The translations under genes were made by a program, and so were the position numbers. This document shows, in pieces, positions 1,490 to 20,411 of a stretch of 20,411 bases of DNA; the first letter of the stretch is position 1, and the number at the start of each line of letters is the position of its first letter. Below the pieces are notes generated by a model, which had not been told where the DNA came from, did not search any database, and was given only the letters and a program-made list of their open reading frames with translations. The DNA is from a virus: positions 1-20,411 of IMG/VR virus record IMGVR_UViG_3300014914_000049. The stretch is one strand, 5' to 3'.

Positions 1490-2218
1490 TTACTTACACA
1501 TTGACTCTAAAAAGGCCATCAATTCCTTTAACTTCACCAACTGGTGAGGGCTTAGCTGTTTATGGAAATCAGTCACAGCCCGCTCTTGAACGACTCGAAA
1601 GCACCAGGAAGTGTCAACCGACCTCACGTTTGGGAAAGCACCATAAACACGAAGTTCATTAGGGTGACCCAAACCTAAGATGTGAACAGGAATTTCAGCT
1701 CCTACCTCCATCAAGTAAGTCAGCGCTCTGTGTCGTCCCGCTACCACGAACGCGGGCATAAGCTGTTTTGGGCGAGCCTCTTTCGGAGTTAAAGCAAGCG
1801 AAGCTGCTTTACCCAAGCCGATCACATCACACCACGGTGCGTCTACAAATACCTTCAGACATTCCATGTACTCTTTAGGGCTGTTCCCTTGAGGAACACA
1901 CATGATCTTCGTGGTAGGAAACTCCGATCTTATAAGAGCGGCGAATTTAGCAGATTCCTCACAAGTCCTTTCAGCGTCATACAAGTAATCAGGTGCGACA
2001 ACCTCATGTGGACGCAACGCTTCCACCTTCGCTTTATCAATCTGAGGCGTTCCTGTCTCAATAACTCCATTATCTAAGACAATGTATGCCCCACTCTCGC
2101 GTTGCCTCTCGTAAAATTCTAAATACTCCCCTTCCAGTAAGTGAGCCAATACGAGATGTTGATTTAAGTGGCTCACTAAGTCTAGATGAGGAATTGGTGC
2201 GTTGATCATTAACTTCAC
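1490..2218 (-). CDS. TGT-fold transglycosylase, DpdA-like (candidate 7-deazaguanine DNA transglycosylase)
   Basis: The 242-residue protein shows the order of tRNA-guanine transglycosylase (TGT) motifs: VLDNG (47-51, like the DSGGF catalytic-acid loop), VVAPD (73-77), VPQG (108-111, like VQGG in base binding), IGLG (133-136), then HILGLGHPNEL (179-189, like the LMGVG-P segment) and RSVDTSW (199-205), where D202 fits the nucleophilic Asp. TGT proteins exchange guanine for a 7-deazaguanine; the short phage members of the DpdA type act on DNA rather than tRNA. The C-terminal tRNA-binding zinc site of bacterial TGT is not seen, which favours the short DNA-type form. FolE2 in the same gene string (9355-10173) could start precursor synthesis. 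A diverged copy is at 17825-18511. The start is GTG at 2218 with GGAGG six bases upstream. The fold assignment is strong; DNA as substrate is inferred. Confidence 0.72.
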   Translation of the reverse strand: MKLMINAPIPHLDLVSHLNQHLVLAHLLEGEYLEFYERQRESGAYIVLDNGVIETGTPQIDKAKVEALRPHEVVAPDYLYDAERTCEESAKFAALIRSEFPTTKIMCVPQGNSPKEYMECLKVFVDAPWCDVIGLGKAASLALTPKEARPKQLMPAFVVAGRHRALTYLMEVGAEIPVHILGLGHPNELRVYGAFPNVRSVDTSWCFRVVQERAVTDFHKQLSPHQLVKLKELMAFLESMCK

Positions 2219-2233
2219 TGTCCACCTCCTATA

Positions 2234-3103
2234 TTACTCTAATCGAACCCCTAAATCCTCTGGGGGTAGAACTTGGTACCCAAACCCTGGTATCACCTTA
2301 AAGTGACGCAAAAGCCTTTTTGCCGTTGACTCTGAAATGTTAAATCTTTGCATCAACTTCTGAGTCGCTTCCTTCGCGCTGCTCGACGTGCACAAACATT
2401 CCAAAACCTGCCGCTTAACTTCGTCCTTACCTAATTTAAGGTAAGCTTTACTTAACCAACTACGACTATAACTACTCCCCGGGAGTTTAATTCCGTACTT
2501 GAACAGCAGTGCCCTCACAGGCTTAACATCAAAACCCAACTTAGCAGCGATTTTTATTTGCGTCCTGTACTTCTCTGCCAAACGGGTAAGAAAGTGACGT
2601 TTACCCTCTTCGGTTGTACATCCTATACTGTCCAGAAATCGTTCGACCATTATACCAGATCGTCTCTTCTCTAACCACTTTAGTTTCGCCAACACACTCC
2701 TAACTCGTTCTTCTCTAGTGACACCTCTTACAACATACCTCGCCAACTTCCTAACGGCTTTACTATATGTAGTTTCTTCCCCCTTAAAAGGAGGAACATA
2801 AAAATGGTACACATCTCTCTGAGACTCACGTAATAAATACTTCAAGGCACGAACTAGAGGGGCTGGTGCGTACATAAGGTTATCAGAAAACCACCTATCA
2901 CAAACAAACGACGACTCTGAAAGCCATAGCAGAATATAGTTAGCCATACAGTAACAAGTTTTCAACTCTTCAGAAAGACCATCAACCTCACCTACATCCA
3001 CAACAACGGTCGAAATCCCCAGTGCCTTAGCTACATCCTTTGCTAAAGTAGTCTTACCGACACCCCTATCACCTGTAAACGCGATTTTCAGAATTCCAGA
3101 CAT
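2234..3103 (-). CDS. P-loop kinase-like NTPase with two predicted HTH segments
   Basis: The 289-residue protein opens with a Walker A loop, GDRGVGKT (11-18), followed by helix residues typical of nucleotide and nucleoside kinases. DRWFSDNLMY (69-78) matches the DR-x3-DN-x2-Y segment of NadR-like and AAA_28 ATPases. From about residue 150 the sequence changes character: residues 178-206 (KYRTQIKIAAKLGF then VRALLFKYGI) look like a helix-turn-helix, and residues 242-270 (KEATQKLMQRFNIS then AKRLLRHF) like a second. A nucleotide-kinase-type core fused to DNA-binding segments is unusual; it could be a regulated NTPase, a DNA-modification kinase or a nucleotide kinase. The ATG directly follows the TAG of the membrane protein, with only a weak ribosome binding site, so translational coupling is likely. 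Confidence 0.72.
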   Translation of the reverse strand: MSGILKIAFTGDRGVGKTTLAKDVAKALGISTVVVDVGEVDGLSEELKTCYCMANYILLWLSESSFVCDRWFSDNLMYAPAPLVRALKYLLRESQRDVYHFYVPPFKGEETTYSKAVRKLARYVVRGVTREERVRSVLAKLKWLEKRRSGIMVERFLDSIGCTTEEGKRHFLTRLAEKYRTQIKIAAKLGFDVKPVRALLFKYGIKLPGSSYSRSWLSKAYLKLGKDEVKRQVLECLCTSSSAKEATQKLMQRFNISESTAKRLLRHFKVIPGFGYQVLPPEDLGVRLE

Positions 3104-3316
3104 CTATTCATCCCGAGTCAATAGTCGTTGCATTATAAAATCTAAGAAAATAAGGAGCACTGTTATCGCTACGAAACTGTAAACCAAGGTTCCGCTCGAG
3201 AGTCCAACATACATAAGCAAAGCATGAACGCCCTCCACAACAACACAAATCCCTGTCAAGATCCATACTAAAACCAACAAACCCACCACTACATCAATAA
3301 CAACATTATCCTTCAT
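3104..3316 (-). CDS. Small two-helix membrane protein
   Basis: The 70-residue product is mostly hydrophobic, with two likely membrane segments (about residues 7-28 and 43-64), a short charged N-terminus and a C-terminus ending QRLLTRDE. No family is recognised. The ATG is preceded by GGAGG seven bases upstream and overlaps the upstream stop as ATGA, while its own stop touches the next start. Being inside a replication gene string, it might anchor a replication or exclusion function at the membrane, but that is a guess. Confidence 0.68.
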   Translation of the reverse strand: MKDNVVIDVVVGLLVLVWILTGICVVVEGVHALLMYVGLSSGTLVYSFVAITVLLIFLDFIMQRLLTRDE

Positions 3317-3738
3317 TTTTGTACCTCCATTAAACGCGAAAGTACTCTATCAAAATCACACATGAAAAAACCATCTGTATACATAAATGGCTGCACCCGA
3401 AAAGGCAAATCCTTCACAGCTGTTAAGAAGTAAGTAGCCACACCTTCCTTCTGTACCACAAGGCTTACTGGTTGGGTGATGCTTAGCGCGTCTCGTACTG
3501 CTTTCTGTAAATCCCCATAAAGACCCACCTTCATTAATCTCACTATAGAAAAGTCAACGCATACACAGTACAACCAACCTTGCAGAGCACAACTAAAGTG
3601 TCTAACCTGTCCAAGCAACCTCGCACGCAGTGTCGCTTCAATCTCGGAACATAAAAACGGGTGGAACTTATTGAGCACCTTCTTCTCGAGGTACCTCTGG
3701 CGTCTCTCCGCTTTCGTCTGAGGGAACGTCGCTAACAT
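3313..3738 (-). CDS. Unrecognised protein overlapping the recA 3' end
   Basis: The 141-residue frame starts at ATG 3738 inside the last 71 bases of the recombinase gene, with a strong GGAGG seven to eight bases upstream that lies wholly within recA. The N-terminus is basic (KAERRQRYLEKK), and the middle has hydrophobic Cys-rich strands (WLYCVCVDF). It ends by ATGA overlap with the membrane-protein gene. I recognise no domain. The ribosome binding site and coupled stop support a real gene. Position after recA suggests a recombination accessory role (for example a mediator), but no sequence feature shows it. Confidence 0.7.
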   Translation of the reverse strand: MLATFPQTKAERRQRYLEKKVLNKFHPFLCSEIEATLRARLLGQVRHFSCALQGWLYCVCVDFSIVRLMKVGLYGDLQKAVRDALSITQPVSLVVQKEGVATYFLTAVKDLPFRVQPFMYTDGFFMCDFDRVLSRLMEVQK

Positions 3739-4744
3739 ATTTACCTCCCTCTTTCCTCATTTGCCTAATCTGCGTTACTGCTGGGGCAAGATCGCCATAA
3801 AACGCAGACACAACAGATTTCTCAATCGCCTCAGAGATCTCAGGAGGTGCGGCGCCTTGAAACTTCTGACCCTCAAACTCACACCAACCTCCTCCTAACT
3901 TTTTCACAAAACCCCATTGTGACGCGAGGCTCAAAATCGCTCTTGAGTCATCAAAACCCGAGTCGAAGTAATAATCCACAGATGACCGTAGATATGGTCG
4001 ACGTAACTTATTCTTTACACAGAGTACCTCAAGGCGTATCCCTATTACTTCATCCTCTTTAGCCTTGATCAACTGAGTCCTCTTCAATAGAATCTGAACT
4101 GCGCTGTGGAAGTCGAACGTATGACCACCGATCTTAGTATATCCTACAGAACCAAACGTCCCTATCTTCTCCTTCATTTGATTTGTCGCGACAAACAAGG
4201 CGTTCAACCTTGCTATGTGAGTCGTAAGCTGTCTAAACATACGTGAAAGCGTTCGTGCGTGAAGTCCTAACGACTTCCCTGACGAATCACTATCAACCTC
4301 CTCAAGCACAGGAGTTGCTGCAACTGAGTCTAGTGCAAGCACTACCGGAGACACGTCCTTCAACTCATTACATAAGAACAGAAACTGTTCACCGACTAAC
4401 TGTAAGTTGTCAGGATTGAGTAGTAGTAAATCTCTAGGAATTACCCCAAACAATCGAGCCCAATCTTCTGTATACGAAAACTCAGAATCACACAAAGCCG
4501 CGAAACCATTGAACTGGTGGCAGGCTCCGATAATTGCAGCAATAACTGCTGACTTCCCAACTGATTCAAACCCATAGATCTCAACGACCCTACCAAGTGG
4601 AAAGCCTGGCATGCCCAAAACAAAGTCGATCGGCAGTACACATGAAGGTAAATAACCACGCGCTTCCTGTTTAACCCCCTCCAATGCGCCCAGCGATCCA
4701 AATCGTCGTTCCATCTTCTTTACAACTGTGTCTAGACTACTCAT
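3668..4744 (-). CDS. recA: RecA/UvsX-family recombinase
   Basis: The 358-residue protein has the RecA core: Walker A GFESVGKS (58-65), LCDSEFSYTEDWARLFG (84-100, matching the catalytic-Glu segment), Walker B VVLALDS (134-140), an L2-like ATNQMKEKIGTFG run (186-198) and VKNKLRRPY (243-251, as VKNK in RecA). The C-terminus is acidic (DESGETPEVPREE), as in bacterial RecA. It should form ATP-dependent filaments on ssDNA and pair homologous strands, working with the SSB just upstream, the SbcCD-like pair and the UvsW-like helicase in recombination-driven replication. The ATG overlaps the SSB stop as TAATG; the ribosome binding site is weak, so coupling to SSB translation is likely. The last 71 bases also encode the start of the next gene. 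Confidence 0.95.
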   Translation of the reverse strand: MSSLDTVVKKMERRFGSLGALEGVKQEARGYLPSCVLPIDFVLGMPGFPLGRVVEIYGFESVGKSAVIAAIIGACHQFNGFAALCDSEFSYTEDWARLFGVIPRDLLLLNPDNLQLVGEQFLFLCNELKDVSPVVLALDSVAATPVLEEVDSDSSGKSLGLHARTLSRMFRQLTTHIARLNALFVATNQMKEKIGTFGSVGYTKIGGHTFDFHSAVQILLKRTQLIKAKEDEVIGIRLEVLCVKNKLRRPYLRSSVDYYFDSGFDDSRAILSLASQWGFVKKLGGGWCEFEGQKFQGAAPPEISEAIEKSVVSAFYGDLAPAVTQIRQMRKEGGKYVSDVPSDESGETPEVPREEGAQ

Positions 4745-5595
4745 TACTTCTGCCCCATCAACCTATTTAATGCGTCCTTCACCTTCTGGGGGTCAAACCC
4801 AGTCTGTGGTGTTTGAGGCTGTGCCGGCTGTTGTGGTACTGGCGTTGACGGCGCTTGGGGCTGTGTTGGTTGCTGAGGTACTGGTGTCGGCTGTTGTGGT
4901 ACTGGCGTTGACGGCGCTTGGGGCTGTGTTGGTTGCTGAGGTACTGGTGTTGGCTGTTGTGGTACTGGTGCTGATGCTGATTGTGAACCAAGCGGTGCAA
5001 CAGCCACGTCTATACTCTCATCTTGCAGCAAACTGATAATGTACTCGGGTGTCGCCTTAGTATAAATCTTATCTAAATCATGCATTTTAGTCAACAATTG
5101 AGGATCAACCTCGGTTTGCTGTGGATCGGGGATAATCTGATACTTTGTCGATTTAACCCCTGAACCTTCACGCACTACAGTTACGTTCCTTCCTGTTTTT
5201 GAATCTGTCAGATCACCCCACTGCGGATCAATACAGAACTGCGCGAATTGGTTCCATATTATCGGGGGCATTGCCCAAACATGTACACCACTATTTTTGT
5301 CCTCCAAGTCAACCATATTAACGAGGAACCTGTTTATCGTGTTGATTTTCCCTTCGAGCGAGGGAGCTAAAACAGGATCTTGAAGCATCGAGCAAACAAT
5401 GCAGTTCCCTGGTGTACACAACACACTTCGTGATCCAACCCAATGCAACCTAACAGGCTTGTAAAACAAATGGGTGTCGGGCTTCCATGGGGGAAGAATC
5501 CTGATGTAATTCCGACCCACTTTTGGCTTCCAGAAGGAACCAACTGTAGATGAATACTGACCTAAGTCCTTCTTGAGTTGTTCGATGTCTAACAT
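4744..5595 (-). CDS. gp32-like single-stranded DNA-binding protein with Pro/Gln repeat tail
   Basis: The 283-residue protein matches phage gp32-type SSBs. FWKPKVGRNYIRILPPW (21-37) is the usual first strand, H51-C60-C65-C68 forms a plausible zinc site (gp32 uses His and three Cys), and GDLTDSKTGR (127-136) is the conserved turn before the last OB strands. From about residue 207 a linker of VPQQPT and QPQAPST repeats runs to about 260, then FDPQKVKDALNRLMG closes the protein. gp32 normally ends in an acidic tail that binds partners; here the end is not acidic. The start is ATG 5595, with GGAGG six bases upstream and just after the polymerase stop; upstream in-frame codons lie inside the polymerase gene. 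It should coat ssDNA for the polymerase and RecA. Confidence 0.87.
   Translation of the reverse strand: MLDIEQLKKDLGQYSSTVGSFWKPKVGRNYIRILPPWKPDTHLFYKPVRLHWVGSRSVLCTPGNCIVCSMLQDPVLAPSLEGKINTINRFLVNMVDLEDKNSGVHVWAMPPIIWNQFAQFCIDPQWGDLTDSKTGRNVTVVREGSGVKSTKYQIIPDPQQTEVDPQLLTKMHDLDKIYTKATPEYIISLLQDESIDVAVAPLGSQSASAPVPQQPTPVPQQPTQPQAPSTPVPQQPTPVPQQPTQPQAPSTPVPQQPAQPQTPQTGFDPQKVKDALNRLMGQK
4825..4968. repeat. 63-bp tandem repeat in the SSB gene (2.3 copies)
   Basis: Bases 4825-4887 and 4888-4950 are identical over all 63 positions, and a third partial copy starts at 4951 with a single change before diverging near 4968. The period is 21 codons, so the frame is kept and each unit adds one TPVPQQPTPVPQQPTQPQAPS-type module to the SSB linker. 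Identity at synonymous positions points to a recent duplication. Confidence 0.95.
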
Positions 5596-5605
5596 ACCAT
5601 ACCTC

Positions 5606-8020
5606 CTAATAAAATAGTTCTTCGCCCCCCTCCCATCTATCAGAGACCTTAATATCAACAGGGATAACGAGGGACGTATTCGGAATTGGACGTTCCATAA
5701 CGTCCTTTATTATCTCTCCAACCTCTTCAACACAATCCTCAGGCGACTTAACTCCTATTGCGTCATGCAGTTGTAAAATCACAACAGCGCCGGATCCCTT
5801 TGACTTCAACAGCTCGACCAACATCGAAAGAGATTGATTAGTATGATCCGCGATAGTACTTTGCGGCACGAAACTAAGTGCCTGTCTCTCCCATTCTGAC
5901 AGGAAGGGGCCTGGAGGGAAAATCCTAGTCCTACCGTACAAGTTACGTAATACTCTTTTCGATCTAGCTTCTTCCACTACATAATCCATGAAAGACTTAA
6001 TCTCGGGGAACTCCGTAAAAAATTGGTTCATGATCGCCTCAGCCTCTTTGAGTGGAATCCGAAACTGATCGGCGACGCTGTGCGCCTGACGACCGTACAT
6101 CAACCCATATACAACAAATTTAGCCATCTTCCTCTCAATATCATCCTTATGAATCTTCTTTTTAAATATGCGCTCCGCAACGACTGTGTGAATATCACGC
6201 CCAGTGCTAAACGCTTCCATCATTGTTGCACACTGTGCAACATATGCCATTACTCGTGCTTCAGCCTGTGAATAGTCCGCCTCAATAAACTTATAACCTG
6301 GTGGGACATTAAAAATAGATCGTAGTGCCGATTTCGGTATGGTCTGAATTGGAGGTGATGTACAAGAGAGACGCCCACTTACGGTACCAGTTACGTGATA
6401 ATCAGGATGGACTTTCCCATCTTTTGCCACAAACCTCCAGATTCCACCTCTCCCTCCCGCCAAGTATGTAGACAGTACCTTTTGACGCTTCCGCAACTTA
6501 ATTAGTGAGTCAACTACGGATAAAGCCCTCGTGTCTTGTTTCTGCTTAGCCCATGCGAGTAACTTTTGCAGCGCTTCGGCACATGTTGACGCCTTCTCTC
6601 CTTTTGTCTTTACAAGCACAGGAAGGCCCAAATCCGAATAAAGAACATTACTCAGCTGTGCTGAAGAGCGTGGATTGAACTTCTTACCAACACTTCTGTA
6701 CAAATCCTCCTCAAGGCTTATTACTTCATCTGCGACTTGTTTAGTCAACTCCTGAACTCGATCCCCATCTACACTCATACCTTCAATTTCGACATGTGTT
6801 AACGCTATTTGAGTAGGAAGCACTACATTCCAATATAAGTAGGAGTACTCTTTTTCAATGCTCGGAATCATCTTCAGCGCGATTAGACGTGTTACAATTG
6901 AGTCATGTGCAGTATATTCATATAGAATCGAGGAAGGAATTTCCGAGTAAGACTTAACTTTATTAGCCTTCTTGTACAACTCTAAGGGCAGATCGTACTT
7001 AGGGTAGTCTAAGTAGATCGATACTAGTGTAACTAAGTCACAAGGTATATTCTCGTTTAATACGTGCTGACCTAACATAGTGTCAAAATATATGTTATTG
7101 ACAGTGAACCCACACTGATATAAAAACTCGAGATCGAACTTGATGTTTTGACCCACTTTTCTACATCTCGAGTTCAGTATTCTTTCAACAAATGGCCTCA
7201 CTACCGGATCATCGAAAGGAATAACAACACCTACATAGTCCTTAAAGGAGATACTCAAACATAAAACTTTATCACTAAAAGGATCCACCCCAGTAGTCTC
7301 GACATCAAAAGCAAGCAACTCATCTTCAGGTAGCTCTTCCACCATGCGCGTGACTTCTTCCAGATCCCATAAAGTGTTCACCACAAAATAAGTCGACCGA
7401 CCTTCTTGGTAATTTCCTGTCAAAACCCTATAGAGTTTCTGAACGTCACACATATATAAAAATTCCCTCTCCCGCTGGCGTAGGATACTCGCTGGGTGCA
7501 TAAGAGGGAAAATGACACATCCATCGGCCGTGTGGAGAACATAACCACGCACTGCCATTATGGAAGTCAAAGGCTCCTTTCGAGCTAACTGAAGTAACTC
7601 ACACCCCTTAAGGTTAAGGATCGACGTTATGTACTCCAAAGCAAGCCCACCTAAAGGAATAATTAAACTAGGGTTGACTTTCTTAATCTCTTTCCGTAAT
7701 CGTGGGATACAAAAGTTATCTCGGATCGACTTAACTGGGTTTTTGGCTGAACAAAGACACGCGTTTGTGATATACAAATACATCTCACGTTTACGTAAGA
7801 AGTCCTCAAAGTCGTGCGCGTCTGGCACTAACCACCCCAGGTATTTAAATAAGAATTCACCACTCGCACCACAAAAGGGGATCCCGCGTAACAGCTCCTC
7901 GGATCCGGGACTTTCTCCCACGACCATAATCACCGCGCGTGGATCTCCATGTGGCGGGACAATTTTGACCTTAGGCTTTATTGGGCATAATCCACACATT
8001 GCATCTCCATATACATCCAT
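5606..8020 (-). CDS. polA: Family A DNA polymerase fused to an N-terminal family-4-like uracil-DNA glycosylase
   Basis: Three domains are visible in 804 residues. Residues 1-200 resemble family 4 UDG: C9, C12, C88 or C90 and C104 as iron-sulfur ligands, GESPGSEE (35-42), GIPFCGASG (46-54) and HPAS (175-178). Residues 230-390 hold a DEDDy 3'-5' exonuclease: DVE (239-241), NIKFD (292-296) and YTAHD (369-373). Residues 410-804 are a polymerase A core: TVSGRLS (546-552), motif A DYSQAEAR (582-589), motif B R630-K634-Y638 and motif C HDA (752-754). There is no 5' nuclease. Motif B has Tyr where E. coli Pol I has Phe762 (as T7 polymerase does), and motif C has Ala after the catalytic Asp where Glu is usual. 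This is presumably the replicative enzyme, with built-in proofreading and uracil recognition, matching the nearby dUTPase. The ATG 8020 follows GGTGGAGGA. Confidence 0.93.
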   Translation of the reverse strand: MDVYGDAMCGLCPIKPKVKIVPPHGDPRAVIMVVGESPGSEELLRGIPFCGASGEFLFKYLGWLVPDAHDFEDFLRKREMYLYITNACLCSAKNPVKSIRDNFCIPRLRKEIKKVNPSLIIPLGGLALEYITSILNLKGCELLQLARKEPLTSIMAVRGYVLHTADGCVIFPLMHPASILRQREREFLYMCDVQKLYRVLTGNYQEGRSTYFVVNTLWDLEEVTRMVEELPEDELLAFDVETTGVDPFSDKVLCLSISFKDYVGVVIPFDDPVVRPFVERILNSRCRKVGQNIKFDLEFLYQCGFTVNNIYFDTMLGQHVLNENIPCDLVTLVSIYLDYPKYDLPLELYKKANKVKSYSEIPSSILYEYTAHDSIVTRLIALKMIPSIEKEYSYLYWNVVLPTQIALTHVEIEGMSVDGDRVQELTKQVADEVISLEEDLYRSVGKKFNPRSSAQLSNVLYSDLGLPVLVKTKGEKASTCAEALQKLLAWAKQKQDTRALSVVDSLIKLRKRQKVLSTYLAGGRGGIWRFVAKDGKVHPDYHVTGTVSGRLSCTSPPIQTIPKSALRSIFNVPPGYKFIEADYSQAEARVMAYVAQCATMMEAFSTGRDIHTVVAERIFKKKIHKDDIERKMAKFVVYGLMYGRQAHSVADQFRIPLKEAEAIMNQFFTEFPEIKSFMDYVVEEARSKRVLRNLYGRTRIFPPGPFLSEWERQALSFVPQSTIADHTNQSLSMLVELLKSKGSGAVVILQLHDAIGVKSPEDCVEEVGEIIKDVMERPIPNTSLVIPVDIKVSDRWEGGEELFY

Positions 8021-8025
8021 TCTTA

Positions 8026-8080
8026 TCCTCCACCTTTCAGTATTCTATTACTTATGTGTTCTTCATACACGTGTGGAGGA
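8026..8080 (-). promoter_or_regulatory. Inverted repeat that could mask the polymerase ribosome binding site
   Basis: In the 61-base leader before the polymerase gene, the transcript carries TCCTCCAC (8080-8073) and, about 39 bases later, its exact complement GTGGAGGA (8033-8026). The second arm is the polymerase Shine-Dalgarno. An eight-pair GC-rich stem, extendable by one G-U pair, would hide it. Similar matches to the anti-Shine-Dalgarno core can arise by chance, so the regulatory role is inferred. Confidence 0.35.
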
Positions 8081-8081
8081 C

Positions 8082-8636
8082 TTAGGAAGAACCCGGCTCA
8101 ACCTTAATCCAAAACGCTTGCTTCGTGTGGTACTTATTACACTCTTTCATAAAAATTGGGGTTAAACCTTCAATATCAACTCTGATATCCCCCGCTACTA
8201 TCTCTTCCATCCAATCATGCACCCCAATTATATCATTAGGCTTCAGGAAACGCGCATAAATATTGAACTCATTGATCTTATTACCATTATCACAGTAAAC
8301 AAAGACCCTATCAGGCGATTCGATTAGCTTACGTATCTCATCTATAGTTTTAGGCTCAAAAACGTCAGCCTTTCGAAAATCAACTCCAAACTTCTGAAAA
8401 AGAACCTTACCTCTACCAATCTCCAAATAGGCTGGCGTCTTATCATAAGTGATAAACTCACTGTCATATGCTTTAGCCAGGAAATGCATAAAAAGGCTCG
8501 CACCACCCCACCCCGTCCCCAACTCTATGACTCTTCTTGGTGCGTAAGTCTTAAATATCAACTCAAAAAGATACAAAGCCGACCAACTCTGATAGACTTT
8601 GATCCCACAAAAAGAGGATGGTATCTCAAAACACAT
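8082..8636 (-). CDS. Class I SAM methyltransferase-fold protein, CmcI/cephalosporin hydroxylase-like
   Basis: The 184-residue protein is a Rossmann methyltransferase fold: VIELGTGWGGAS (36-47) is motif I for SAM binding, ITYDKTP (62-68) fits the acidic end of strand two, KADVFEP (89-95) motif III, and VFVYCDNGNK (111-120) plus IIGVHDW (136-142) match the DG-x-K and HD segments of CmcI/cephalosporin-hydroxylase-like and small-molecule O-methyltransferases. In these families the Asp and His bind a metal and the substrate. No DNA-methylase catalytic motif (DPPY or PCQ) is seen, so a base methylase is unlikely. Lying between the polymerase and nucleotide genes, it might act on a nucleotide, a modified base or a cell-envelope sugar. 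The start ATG 8636 follows AGGGG. The fold is firm; the substrate is unknown. Confidence 0.75.
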   Translation of the reverse strand: MCFEIPSSFCGIKVYQSWSALYLFELIFKTYAPRRVIELGTGWGGASLFMHFLAKAYDSEFITYDKTPAYLEIGRGKVLFQKFGVDFRKADVFEPKTIDEIRKLIESPDRVFVYCDNGNKINEFNIYARFLKPNDIIGVHDWMEEIVAGDIRVDIEGLTPIFMKECNKYHTKQAFWIKVEPGSS

Positions 8637-8668
8637 TATCGACCCCTATTAGTACAACAATTCTATTC

Positions 8669-8682
8669 GTAGCTTACGCTAC
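8669..8682 (-). other. Small GUAA-loop hairpin between genes
   Basis: The minus strand reads GTAGC, GTAA, GTAGC's complement GCTAC: a five-pair stem with a GNRA tetraloop, located just after the stop of the Gly/Arg-rich gene. No T-run follows on the minus strand, so it is not a clear terminator for these genes; on the plus strand a T-rich stretch does follow. It may be an RNA-end or processing structure, or chance. Confidence 0.3.
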
Positions 8683-8683
8683 T

Positions 8684-8851
8684 TTACTTTTTACGGCCGC
8701 CTAAATGACGCCCCCTACCTTTACCAAAGCCAGGACCACCTTTAGAGCAAGGGCCTGTATTACGTCCACCTCTACGACCCCCTAGCATGCCAACTCCATG
8801 CCCACGGCCATCATGTGGACGCAACTGTCCTCTTGGATTCCTCTCCGACAT
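8684..8851 (-). CDS. Gly/Arg-rich 55-residue basic protein
   Basis: The product starts MSERNPRG at ATG 8851, preceded by GGAGGAGGAA, the best ribosome binding site available; upstream in-frame codons would lie within the dUTPase gene. It is built from Gly, Arg, Lys and His (RRGGRNTGP, GKGRGRHLGGRKK), has one Cys and almost no hydrophobic residues, and is therefore probably disordered and nucleic-acid binding. RGG-like composition is seen in RNA or ssDNA binders and in small phage proteins of unknown role. A compositional similarity to glycine-rich DUF5320-type proteins is possible but weak. No catalytic features. Confidence 0.7.
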   Translation of the reverse strand: MSERNPRGQLRPHDGRGHGVGMLGGRRGGRNTGPCSKGGPGFGKGRGRHLGGRKK

Positions 8852-8867
8852 TTCCTCCTCCTTCTTT

Positions 8868-9353
8868 TTATTTGCCTGTACTTCCTGCGCCGCCTCCTCT
8901 GTCGTAAAGATAATCTGGTAACTTAGTAACATTCAAGGTCCCTCCATAGAAGAGAGGAACAAAAAGGACCTGCAACACCCTCTCCCCACTAGAAATATGT
9001 ATGACATCAGAGTAACAGTTGGTAGCAAATGGAGTCCAGGGGAGAAGATAACCAGGATCAAAGATTGACATCGCAACTAAGCCCTTTCTTCTCCACGAAG
9101 ACCGAGGCACTACCAGACCACAAACTCCTTGTGGGACTACGATTCTACACGCACAATCAAGCTTAACGGTTTCACCAGGCTGGATGATGTAAGTTTTGAT
9201 GTAAGTTTTATCTTCTTCACTAGAGTAATCAGTCGGATCAGGATGATTAGCGGGAAGAACTCTGAAGACGCGTAGGTCGAAACCAGCGTCGTGAACATTT
9301 CCTTTTCTAGGGTAAAACCCTTTAACCAATTCCTGAAAATAGATTTCTTGCAT
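8868..9353 (-). CDS. dut: Deoxyuridine triphosphate nucleotidohydrolase (dUTPase)
   Basis: The five motifs of trimeric dUTPases are present in 161 residues: DAGFDL (22-27), PRSSWRRKGL (83-92), a degraded third motif FDPGY (98-102), GERVLQ (123-128) and the C-terminal RGGGAGSTG (152-160). The enzyme splits dUTP to dUMP and pyrophosphate, keeping uracil out of DNA, which fits the UDG domain on the polymerase. The PRSS and FDPGY segments also recall dCTP deaminase, but DAGFDL and GSTG favour dUTPase, and the deaminase catalytic Glu is not seen. An acidic insertion lies at about 36-55. The start is ATG 9353, with GGAGG six bases upstream, overlapping only the end of the FolE2 gene region; upstream in-frame codons lie inside FolE2. 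Confidence 0.87.
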   Translation of the reverse strand: MQEIYFQELVKGFYPRKGNVHDAGFDLRVFRVLPANHPDPTDYSSEEDKTYIKTYIIQPGETVKLDCACRIVVPQGVCGLVVPRSSWRRKGLVAMSIFDPGYLLPWTPFATNCYSDVIHISSGERVLQVLFVPLFYGGTLNVTKLPDYLYDRGGGAGSTGK

Positions 9354-9354
9354 C

Positions 9355-10173
9355 TTATACCTCCTGAAGGAACCACCAAGCATTGACCCGATCCGAACAA
9401 TCGAACGCAACCGCTTGGTGGACATGAATACTTTCTTGGTGTTCAACTTTCACCCAAAACCCATCACTAACGGGGTTCTTCAAGAGTCGATCGCTTATAG
9501 CTCTAACCATATCCTCTACGAACTTCGGGTTCTCGTAAGCCTCAACTGTTACATGCTTCTCATCTGGTCTCTTCAAAAGCTCGAACACAGGAGCGCTAGC
9601 ACACTCCTCTACCAAATTGACAATATGCTCAAACAATACAGTACCTTTGGGGTTGATTAAGGCAACGGACGCAAAAGACCTCTGGTTATGAGCACCTTTT
9701 CCGTCTGCTATTTCCTTCGAACACGGGCAACAAGAAGTGTAAGGTACTTTTACAATCATAAGTAGCGAAGTACATGAAGACTCACAAATACCTACGACAG
9801 AAGTGGTAATGGGCAGAAACTGTTTTATCATACTCCGTGGGGATGTTTTTTCGACGAAGTAATCAAGTGTCACCTTCACAAAGCCATCCGCACTACCTAA
9901 CCTCTCCTTCAGAAAATCCAAAGACTTTACTACGTTATCCACGAGCAGACATTGTTTCTCAAAGCACTTATAGACGACCTCAACAGTACGTGACATATTA
10001 ATCCCACGCACCTCTGGAGTTAGCGAACAATACACTGACAGTGTAGCAGGGGTCCGAACATAACCCAACGAAGGGTAAAATACGTAAACAGGATGCTTCA
10101 CCCCTTCAACTCCAACCCATGGAACCCGGCGTTTTACCTGGCTCGAAGTATTCTGAACATCAGGTAACGTCAT
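9355..10173 (-). CDS. folE2: GTP cyclohydrolase, FolE2 type
   Basis: The 272-residue protein follows the FolE2/COG1469 plan: N-terminal PDVQN (4-8) and VGVEGVKHP (20-28), RGINMSRTVE (56-65, like HMSRF), the active-site run YTSCCPCSKEIADGKGAHNQRS (Cys near 148-151 and His162), and SAPVFELLKRPDEK (193-206), which carries a conserved Glu. FolE2 opens GTP to 7,8-dihydroneopterin triphosphate, first step of folate and of queuosine/7-deazaguanine synthesis. In a phage with TGT/DpdA-like proteins the latter is the attractive role; QueD, QueE and QueC are not in the window. The ATG 10173 follows GGAGG by six bases and overlaps the primase stop (ATGA). Family assignment is strong; pathway use is inferred. 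Confidence 0.92.
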   Translation of the reverse strand: MTLPDVQNTSSQVKRRVPWVGVEGVKHPVYVFYPSLGYVRTPATLSVYCSLTPEVRGINMSRTVEVVYKCFEKQCLLVDNVVKSLDFLKERLGSADGFVKVTLDYFVEKTSPRSMIKQFLPITTSVVGICESSCTSLLMIVKVPYTSCCPCSKEIADGKGAHNQRSFASVALINPKGTVLFEHIVNLVEECASAPVFELLKRPDEKHVTVEAYENPKFVEDMVRAISDRLLKNPVSDGFWVKVEHQESIHVHQAVAFDCSDRVNAWWFLQEV

Positions 10174-18513: not shown

Positions 18514-19233
18514 TCACTTCCCTCCTAACACCTTTCGAGTATAAACATACGACGCACCAACCGCAGCTGCCACATGTGAAATGGGAGCCGCTGGGTGATC
18601 CTTACGATACGCGATAATCCTGTCACGTAGCTTGTCAGGTGCTCTCAAGCCAAGTTTAACCTTCAACGCTTCAACGAGTTCCTTGAACGACCCAACTATA
18701 AAGTAGGAACGCGGATCGACATCCTGGACGGGACATACATTACAAGCACCCCGTCGATCGCACAACAAACACACAACTGCTTCAACCGTGTCAGATAAAA
18801 CTGGACATCTAACACGCCGGTTAACACGATGCCTCACAGTAAAATTAGGTCTACGCTTCACAAACCTAAGCAGAGCACCCCGGTCGAACATTAGCTTAAG
18901 CAGGTGCGTACGTGATGTCTCAAGTGATCTAGCACTCTTTAGTGATCGGGGTGGCCAAGTTATATCGCTCAACGTCCTTCTTACAATATCTAACGTTTGC
19001 TCATCTAGTTTAAGCGAGTTGTACGACAAGTGCCTTAGCGCCGACGCTTCTAGCTGCCTAACACGTTCGCGTGAGACTCCTAAAATCTCAGACAGCTCAT
19101 TGAGAGTATGAGGCCCATCGTTCGCGACTCTGATAGCACAATTCCCATACCTCAAACGTCCAACATACGTCATTCTAGTGAAGTACCGACATTGTGTGTC
19201 ATGACAAACAAATGGCAACTCCCAACATTCCAT
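18514..19233 (-). CDS. Sigma-70 region 4-like protein with Cys cluster and C-terminal HTH
   Basis: Numbered from the GTG at 19236, the 240-residue protein has three parts. Residues 4-33 hold C4, C11, C16 and C33. Residues 43-70 (HTLNELSEILGVSRERVRQLE and on) match sigma-70 region 4.2, which reads the -35 element. Residues 144-168 hold C144-x11-C156-x2-C159-x5-C165 with another Cys at 168. Residues 203-240 form an HTH nearly matching the C-terminus of the protein at 19429-19887. It has no region 2, so it is not a complete sigma factor; it may redirect host RNA polymerase to phage promoters or act as a repressor. I choose ATG 19233 in a TGATG overlap; GTG 19236 is equally possible. Confidence 0.8.
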   Translation of the reverse strand: MECWELPFVCHDTQCRYFTRMTYVGRLRYGNCAIRVANDGPHTLNELSEILGVSRERVRQLEASALRHLSYNSLKLDEQTLDIVRRTLSDITWPPRSLKSARSLETSRTHLLKLMFDRGALLRFVKRRPNFTVRHRVNRRVRCPVLSDTVEAVVCLLCDRRGACNVCPVQDVDPRSYFIVGSFKELVEALKVKLGLRAPDKLRDRIIAYRKDHPAAPISHVAAAVGASYVYTRKVLGGK

Positions 19234-19478: not shown

Positions 19479-19887
19479 ATGATTTCGCGATCTCCGACAC
19501 AGTAGCTTTGGGGTGATTTTTCAAATAAGACACTATAACATCTCTCTTACTCCCCTTTGAGACACTGTCCTTGGTTGGCTTGCGATCTCCTGTCGTTTTA
19601 GGTGCTTTTGACCGATGTGTCTTTCGCCTCACTAATTCATCTTTCACCTCACTTTTTACAATCTGAGCCGACACTGACTTGGCTAAGCTCGCTGGGTCAA
19701 CCATAACATCCTCAACCGTAAGGTTCTGAATGTCGTTTGCCCGTGTAACATCACACTGAGAAAATCGAGAACACGCGAAACAAAAGATCAACGCCTGATA
19801 CCTATCCAACGCGGGGCACCAAATTGACTTAGTAAGCCGGTCCCTAAATTCCTCTTTGATGTCTTCATTACTCATAAGTCGAAGCAT
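19429..19887 (-). CDS. Cys-cluster plus HTH DNA-binding protein
   Basis: I choose ATG 19887, eight bases after GGAGG, overlapping the last bases of nrdD; earlier in-frame ATGs overlap more and are badly spaced. The 152-residue product has C24-x11-C36-x2-C39-x5-C45, exactly the spacing of residues 144-165 in the sigma-like protein at 18514-19233. A charged linker (about 80-112: SKAPKTTGDRKPTKD) follows, then an HTH (114-152: KRDVIVSYLKNHP, SEIAKSCGVSQAYARKVL) that aligns without gaps to that protein's C-terminus, sharing roughly half its residues. The two are paralogues; this one lacks the sigma region 4 part. Zinc or an iron-sulfur cluster is the likely ligand of the Cys set. A transcription regulator is the natural guess. 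Confidence 0.78.
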   Translation of the reverse strand: MLRLMSNEDIKEEFRDRLTKSIWCPALDRYQALIFCFACSRFSQCDVTRANDIQNLTVEDVMVDPASLAKSVSAQIVKSEVKDELVRRKTHRSKAPKTTGDRKPTKDSVSKGSKRDVIVSYLKNHPKATVSEIAKSCGVSQAYARKVLRNSK

Positions 19888-20411
19888 AACCATTACCTCC
19901 ATAATACACTTTCCGTGTTGTATACTCACGTAATCTCTCACTACTCCATGCCCGTAATGGTGAGAAGTATCCTACTACTCTGGTCATCCTCTGAACCTGC
20001 GTACTACCACATGTAGGACAAGCGTCAGTACCAACAAACGTGGAACCACACAAGGAACACTGTGAGATAACATAATTAACCGCAAAGTACGTTGTATGCT
20101 TCGCTGCGAATCTAACCACTTTACGCATCTGATGACTATCAAGACGTTCACCTGTGTTTATGTGTAGTATCCCACCCCCTGACAACAACTTATCAAGTCT
20201 ACCTGCTACTTCTATCCGCTCACGAAGCGGAACATCAAGACTAAGAGGTAAGAGTTGATTACTATAACCCTCTACTCCATAAGCGCCGTCAAACAGGTAC
20301 TTATCCATCCCTGCCAAAGTAAACGCCGCTTGTTCAGCAGGGATCATCTCCACATTGTAAAACACACCATCGCGCCGAGAACGGTCCTTAGATATATCAT
20401 TAAGCCGTGTC
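19868..20411 (-). CDS. nrdD: Anaerobic (class III) ribonucleoside-triphosphate reductase, C-terminal part
   Basis: The frame is open from the window edge, so the gene starts outside it; a GTG at 20365 is internal. The visible part matches the NrdD C-terminus: YNVEMIPAEQAAFTLA (the Y-N-x-E-x-x-PAE segment), a SGGGILHIN turn, four zinc Cys in CSLCG and CPTCG, and TRVVGYFSP, which carries the glycyl-radical Gly (Gly132 counted from 20365), followed by the usual SERLREYTTRKVYYG helix. NrdD reduces NTPs to dNTPs using a Gly radical set by the SAM-dependent activase NrdG, and it works only without oxygen. NrdG is not seen here. It feeds the phage polymerase and implies an anaerobic or facultative host. 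Confidence 0.94.
   Translation of the reverse strand, partial: TRLNDISKDRSRRDGVFYNVEMIPAEQAAFTLAGMDKYLFDGAYGVEGYSNQLLPLSLDVPLRERIEVAGRLDKLLSGGGILHINTGERLDSHQMRKVVRFAAKHTTYFAVNYVISQCSLCGSTFVGTDACPTCGSTQVQRMTRVVGYFSPLRAWSSERLREYTTRKVYYGGNGYASTYE

Follow-up and report, generated by a model that had tools for sequence, protein, structure and literature searches.

The stretch of viral DNA analysed in this study (20,411 nucleotides; hereafter the window) carries on its minus strand a gene, P1 (1490..2218), which is preceded by an AGGAGG ribosome site (2225..2230, minus strand) and encodes a protein of 242 amino acids with a GTG start. We predict that P1 is a catalytic DNA-guanine transglycosylase of the short phage DpdA family, in which D49 would serve as the acid/base and D202 as the nucleophile. 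A preliminary description of this DNA had listed the landmarks of tRNA-guanine transglycosylases (TGTs) in the protein, and every one of them was found in the P1 ORF: VLDNG (with D49), VPQG, IGLG, HILGLGHP and RSVDTSW (with D202). The absence of the zinc-bearing C-terminus of tRNA TGTs, also claimed there, could be read directly in the sequence, which contains no zinc motif. Comparison of the window with a 97%-identical relative gave a dN/dS of 0.041 for P1, and we therefore consider it a real gene. The same strand encodes (i) FolE2, a type IB GTP cyclohydrolase (9355..10173), which would catalyse the first step of 7-deazaguanine synthesis, and (ii) P2 (17825..18517; ribosome site AGGAGG at 18521..18526, minus strand), a P1 paralog without the two catalytic aspartates, which we propose to be a non-catalytic partner. 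Directly upstream of P1, again on the minus strand, lies a gene for a P-loop NTPase with weak similarity to thymidylate kinases (2234..3103; phrog_2107, 1.7e-6). Thymidylate kinases adjoin P1-type genes in phages immuto and CP220 and in the IMG/VR contig G019, and the NTPase is possibly accessory to the modification pathway.

The AlphaFold model of P1, for which relatives from viral contigs were used, had a pLDDT of 92.7. The best 19 matches of this model in a Foldseek search of the PDB were all tRNA-guanine transglycosylases, and its comparison with a TGT by VIA (Z 16.8, rmsd 3.2) aligned 214 residues over TGT positions 40-359. The structure prediction proposed in the preliminary description thus returned a TIM barrel of the TGT type. 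D49 and D202, which are kept in 27 of 27 P1 relatives, were equated with D102 and D280 of the Z. mobilis TGT by motif and fold, not by residue-level overlay. Near the C-terminus, P1 has L233 at a position where its relatives have an invariant asparagine.

A profile built from 25 relatives, with P1 and P2 left out, scored P1 at 3.3e-37, and the protein was also matched by PHROG 20335 (unknown function; 2.7e-9). Homologs were detected by tblastn in phiST, immuto, CP220 and other Campylobacter phages, and BSP7; that of immuto carries the annotation DNA guanine transglycosylase. P1 is a TGT-fold enzyme of a compact phage family, whose members lie near FolE, QueD and/or QueE in each of the seven phages inspected (phiST, immuto, CP220, BSP7, MA9V-3, Ahp1 and RHph_I1_18). 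This family (phiST, immuto, CP220, BSP7) is, we presume, the published “DpdA3” of Cui et al. 2023. Scans of Pfam and NCBIfam gave no match for P1 or P2, and a phmmer search of PDB sequences with P1 produced a single chance-level match (E 1.1); the assignment of both proteins to the family is therefore based on family profiles and fold. Alignment-based searches seeded with P1 and P2, or with phiST and MA9V-3, recovered few relatives, a pattern search of genome_contigs yielded no P1 relative, and a degenerate DNA search for VHILGL[GA][HD]P returned chance loci only, apart from one known relative.

The fold and the chemistry of P1 are those of tRNA TGTs, and the enzyme could conceivably act on tRNA, increasing queuosine-type modification during infection. 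We regard this as improbable: the protein has no match to the Pfam TGT family PF01702 even at E 10 and lacks the zinc- and tRNA-binding C-terminal part, so the assignment to tRNA TGTs, against which the earlier reading was to be checked, did not hold. Moreover, the phage contigs contain no tRNA genes, and the phages in which the family occurs have DNA 7-deazaguanine systems that are either known or annotated.

FolE2 had been recognised previously, and its identity was confirmed by PF02649 (4.7e-67) and by the NCBIfam FolE2 equivalog, which scored above its cut-off. This enzyme is rare among phages, with matches in 3 of 50,697 records. The FolE2 scan led to two unrelated phage contigs (G019 and G023) which also bear a P1-type enzyme. 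In these contigs FolE2 is located 15 bases and 0.9 kb from the P1-type gene, and both contain QueD and QueE. The gene order is QueE, QueC, thymidylate kinase, transglycosylase, FolE2, dUTPase-like, UDG-polymerase-like and QueD in G019, and QueD, QueE, FolE2, homing-endonuclease-like and transglycosylase in G023, where the pathway genes of both were named by Pfam, and the dUTPase, polymerase and endonuclease by eye. G019 (L240) shares FolE2, the P1-type enzyme, the dUTPase and the UDG-polymerase fusion with the window phage, but its genes are clustered, QueC is present, and there is one transglycosylase copy in the 14-kb fragment. Judging from this gene content, in which the pairing recurs in three phage types, FolE2 is a true part of the transglycosylase pathway.

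FolE2 is common to the folate pathway in general, and dNTP genes (dUTPase/dCTP deaminase-like and NrdD) are found in the window as well as in its relatives; the enzyme might thus only supply folate for phage nucleotide synthesis and be unrelated to P1. The fact that this phage type also encodes QueD and QueE, together with the proximity of FolE2 to P1-type genes in the two other contigs, makes this very unlikely. The TGT fold, the conserved aspartates, the FolE/QueD/QueE neighbourhoods and the adjoining of FolE2 and the P1 family in two contigs support the earlier interpretation, i.e. a DNA-type transglycosylase and FolE2 in a 7-deazaguanine DNA pathway. Among bacterial FolE2 proteins, even the closest shares only about 40% identity, and the host could therefore not be inferred from this protein. 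Three cousins of the window detected via FolE2 (L237-L239, 90-97% identical) end before P1 and P2.

The remaining genes of the pathway were sought in three IMG/VR relatives, G001 (10.4 kb), G002 (15.6 kb) and G003 (131 kb), which are 94-97% identical to the window wherever they share sequence with it. A single metagenome yielded both G001 and G003, and an end-to-end overlap of 126 bases (100% identity) connects them; for this reason they very probably represent one genome, the size of which would be 141 kb or more. As stated in the preliminary description, the window lacks QueC and QueD, and it also holds no QueE-like radical SAM gene above the cut-off. The accompanying suggestion that the phage encodes the rest elsewhere proved right for QueD (PF01242, 7.6e-33) and QueE (Cx14CxxC signature; TIGR04508, 8.7e-24), both of which are present in the near-identical contig G003, and not for QueC. 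On the joined G001-G003 map these two genes lie about 20-22 kb from FolE2; their scores are below the NCBIfam equivalog cut-offs, as can be expected for divergent phage proteins. The QueD gene (L006:18449-19771, minus strand of G003) continues the reading frame of a LAGLIDADG-like homing-endonuclease stretch and a Myb/HTH-like N-terminus that precede it; the parts may be fused, an intron may have left a remnant here, or QueD may start further downstream. Twelve bases upstream of QueE lies a gene for 6-phospho-3-hexuloisomerase of the RuMP pathway (L007:1514-2092 in G003; above the NCBIfam cut-off), an unusual phage cargo.

QueC gave no match at E 10 in the window or its three relatives, whose genome is not closed, and the gene may be located in the unassembled part. 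Searches of this phage type likewise revealed neither QueF nor a type IA FolE. Since neither QueC nor QueF was found, the phage's own enzymes, as far as the genes found indicate, would stop at 7-carboxy-7-deazaguanine (CDG). QueC also had no match in phiST, MA9V-3, Ahp1, RHph_I1_18 and contigs G004-G006, and was not found in G023; a QueC match is present in CP220, BSP7 and the immuto group. Because several relatives likewise have no QueC match, stopping at CDG, or some other tailoring of CDG, looks like a recurrent pattern and not a contig artefact.

On this basis we consider it likely (probability of roughly 85%) that the phage modifies its DNA by a 7-deazaguanine system in which P1 is the transglycosylase. 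In the proposed pathway, GTP would be converted to dihydroneopterin triphosphate by FolE2, and then to CPH4 by QueD and to CDG by QueE, the genes of the latter two being those of the 131-kb contig. P1 would use D202 (nucleophile) and D49 (acid/base) to break the glycosidic bond of dG, and a deazaguanine would be inserted into the replicated DNA. The inserted base would most likely be CDG, a CDG derivative or, if a host QueC completes the synthesis, preQ0. The replacement of guanine would protect the phage DNA against restriction, a role which we infer from work on other 7-deazaguanine phages, above all CAjan, whose DNA is protected from restriction by this kind of modification (PMC6884629).

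Phage 7-deazaguanine systems are already known, and that of the window is a variant of them. It resembles those of the short phage DpdA family (phiST, immuto, CP220, BSP7) in sequence family, length class, catalytic aspartates and the FolE/QueD/QueE context, and phiST also lacks QueC. It differs in having FolE2 in place of FolE, scattered genes, a shorter C-terminus of P1 and P2, and a second, catalytically degenerate copy. The DpdA of CAjan, deletion of which abolishes dPreQ0 (PMC6884629), has the same proposed role as P1, i.e. to place 7-deazaguanine in phage DNA. It was not detected by the P1-family profile, which indicates that the P1 family is a separate subfamily; the profile-profile match between the two was limited to the region of the LD(S/N)G motif, at 0.8% probability.

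The second copy, P2, which does not appear in the preliminary description, was found by searching the window with P1 (blastp, 28% identity, E 4e-13). The profile of the 25 relatives scored it at 4.8e-13. Its model (pLDDT 88.3) had the phiST enzyme as the best viral structure match (E 4.6e-11), and its top PDB matches were generic TIM barrels, decarboxylases among them; no TGT occurred among these top matches, a result still compatible with a TGT fold of the modelled protein. At the positions of D49 and D202, P2 has K55 and S200, and it therefore lacks the two aspartates expected of an active DNA-guanine transglycosylase. It retains Y38, D81, Q102, R153, H171, G174 and E181, which are invariant or nearly so among the 27 relatives. 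P1 and P2 group together in the tree (95/87), both on long branches, and both have a shorter C-terminal part than most relatives. This joint grouping and the shared short C-terminus suggest that the two likely arose by duplication within the phage lineage.

The loss of both catalytic aspartates and the long branch would suit a decaying copy without function, but this explanation is improbable in view of the open frame, the good ribosome site and the confident fold. Furthermore, the P2 ORF is the same in three records, and comparison of the window with its relatives gave a dN/dS of 0.085 at a dS of about 0.09, an estimate based on few changes (4 amino-acid differences in 230). P1 and P2 are both retained under purifying selection.

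A two-subunit DNA-guanine transglycosylase, composed of catalytic P1 and catalytically dead P2, is a tentative reading, to which we give a little less than an even chance. P2 would then most likely serve as a partner subunit for the binding of DNA or base, within a P1-P2 heteromer resembling QTRT1/QTRT2. This eukaryotic enzyme also combines one catalytic copy with a paralog in which both aspartates are replaced, a likeness seen for P1/P2 at the level of sequence, and its inactive subunit is required, since only the heterodimer is active (PMC6165067). QTRT1/QTRT2 acts on tRNA; the two viral proteins have diverged far and probably stem from a duplication of their own. It is equally tentative that P1/P2 represents a viral, DNA-acting and independently evolved counterpart of QTRT1/QTRT2, and that it draws on a QueC-less pathway started by FolE2 to place CDG or a derivative in DNA.

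It should be noted that P2 may not bind P1 at all; in other phages, a single copy of the P1-type enzyme is apparently sufficient. P2 may instead have a function of its own, such as tailoring of the base by a TIM-barrel enzyme (a CDG decarboxylase or amidase) or carriage of the base, with P1 alone exchanging the base in DNA. The putative base-side residues D81, Q102, R153 and H171 are kept while those of covalent catalysis are lost, no QueC was found in the phage, which leaves room for another tailoring step, and decarboxylases are among the TIM barrels matched in the PDB. TIM barrels generally match one another, however, and P2 is missing from relatives without QueC, phiST for example. We judge a separate function of P2 to be possible but rather doubtful.

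No clear second copy was found in 21 other records of P1-type phages (19 of 19, and G019 and G023, each with a single copy). A weak second match to the transglycosylase profile in CP220 (NC_027997, 147475-147678; E 0.003) is possibly due to chance. In the named phages with an annotated GTP cyclohydrolase nearby, this enzyme is FolE. To our knowledge, neither FolE2 as the entry enzyme of such a system nor a retained, catalytically degenerate paralog has been described before. The link between FolE2 and the transglycosylase in three phage types allows such systems to be recognised in the absence of FolE, and the QueC-less gene set predicts a base that can be tested. If the two-subunit reading is true, the dead paralog would offer a small viral model for the role of the non-catalytic subunit in heteromeric TGTs, a question left open by the QTRT1 structure paper (PMC6165067).

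Several other genes of this phage type deserve mention. A uracil-DNA glycosylase domain is fused ahead of a family A DNA polymerase with 3'-5' exonuclease in the window (5606-8020), and a similar protein is encoded in L240 (9427-11799). Beside the polymerase lies a CmcI/rhamnosyl O-methyltransferase-like gene (8082-8636), the product of which could tailor a base or a cap. In the cousin L239, a 6.9-kb insert (2635-9433) separates the CmcI-like methyltransferase from the dUTPase-like gene; inspected by eye, it contains sugar, aminotransferase- and glycosyltransferase-like genes and no pathway genes. The window end cuts the gene of an anaerobic ribonucleotide reductase, NrdD (19868-20410), which is whole in G003 (L005:6116-8650) and is adjoined there by an NrdG2-like activase; these two genes suggest an anaerobic host.
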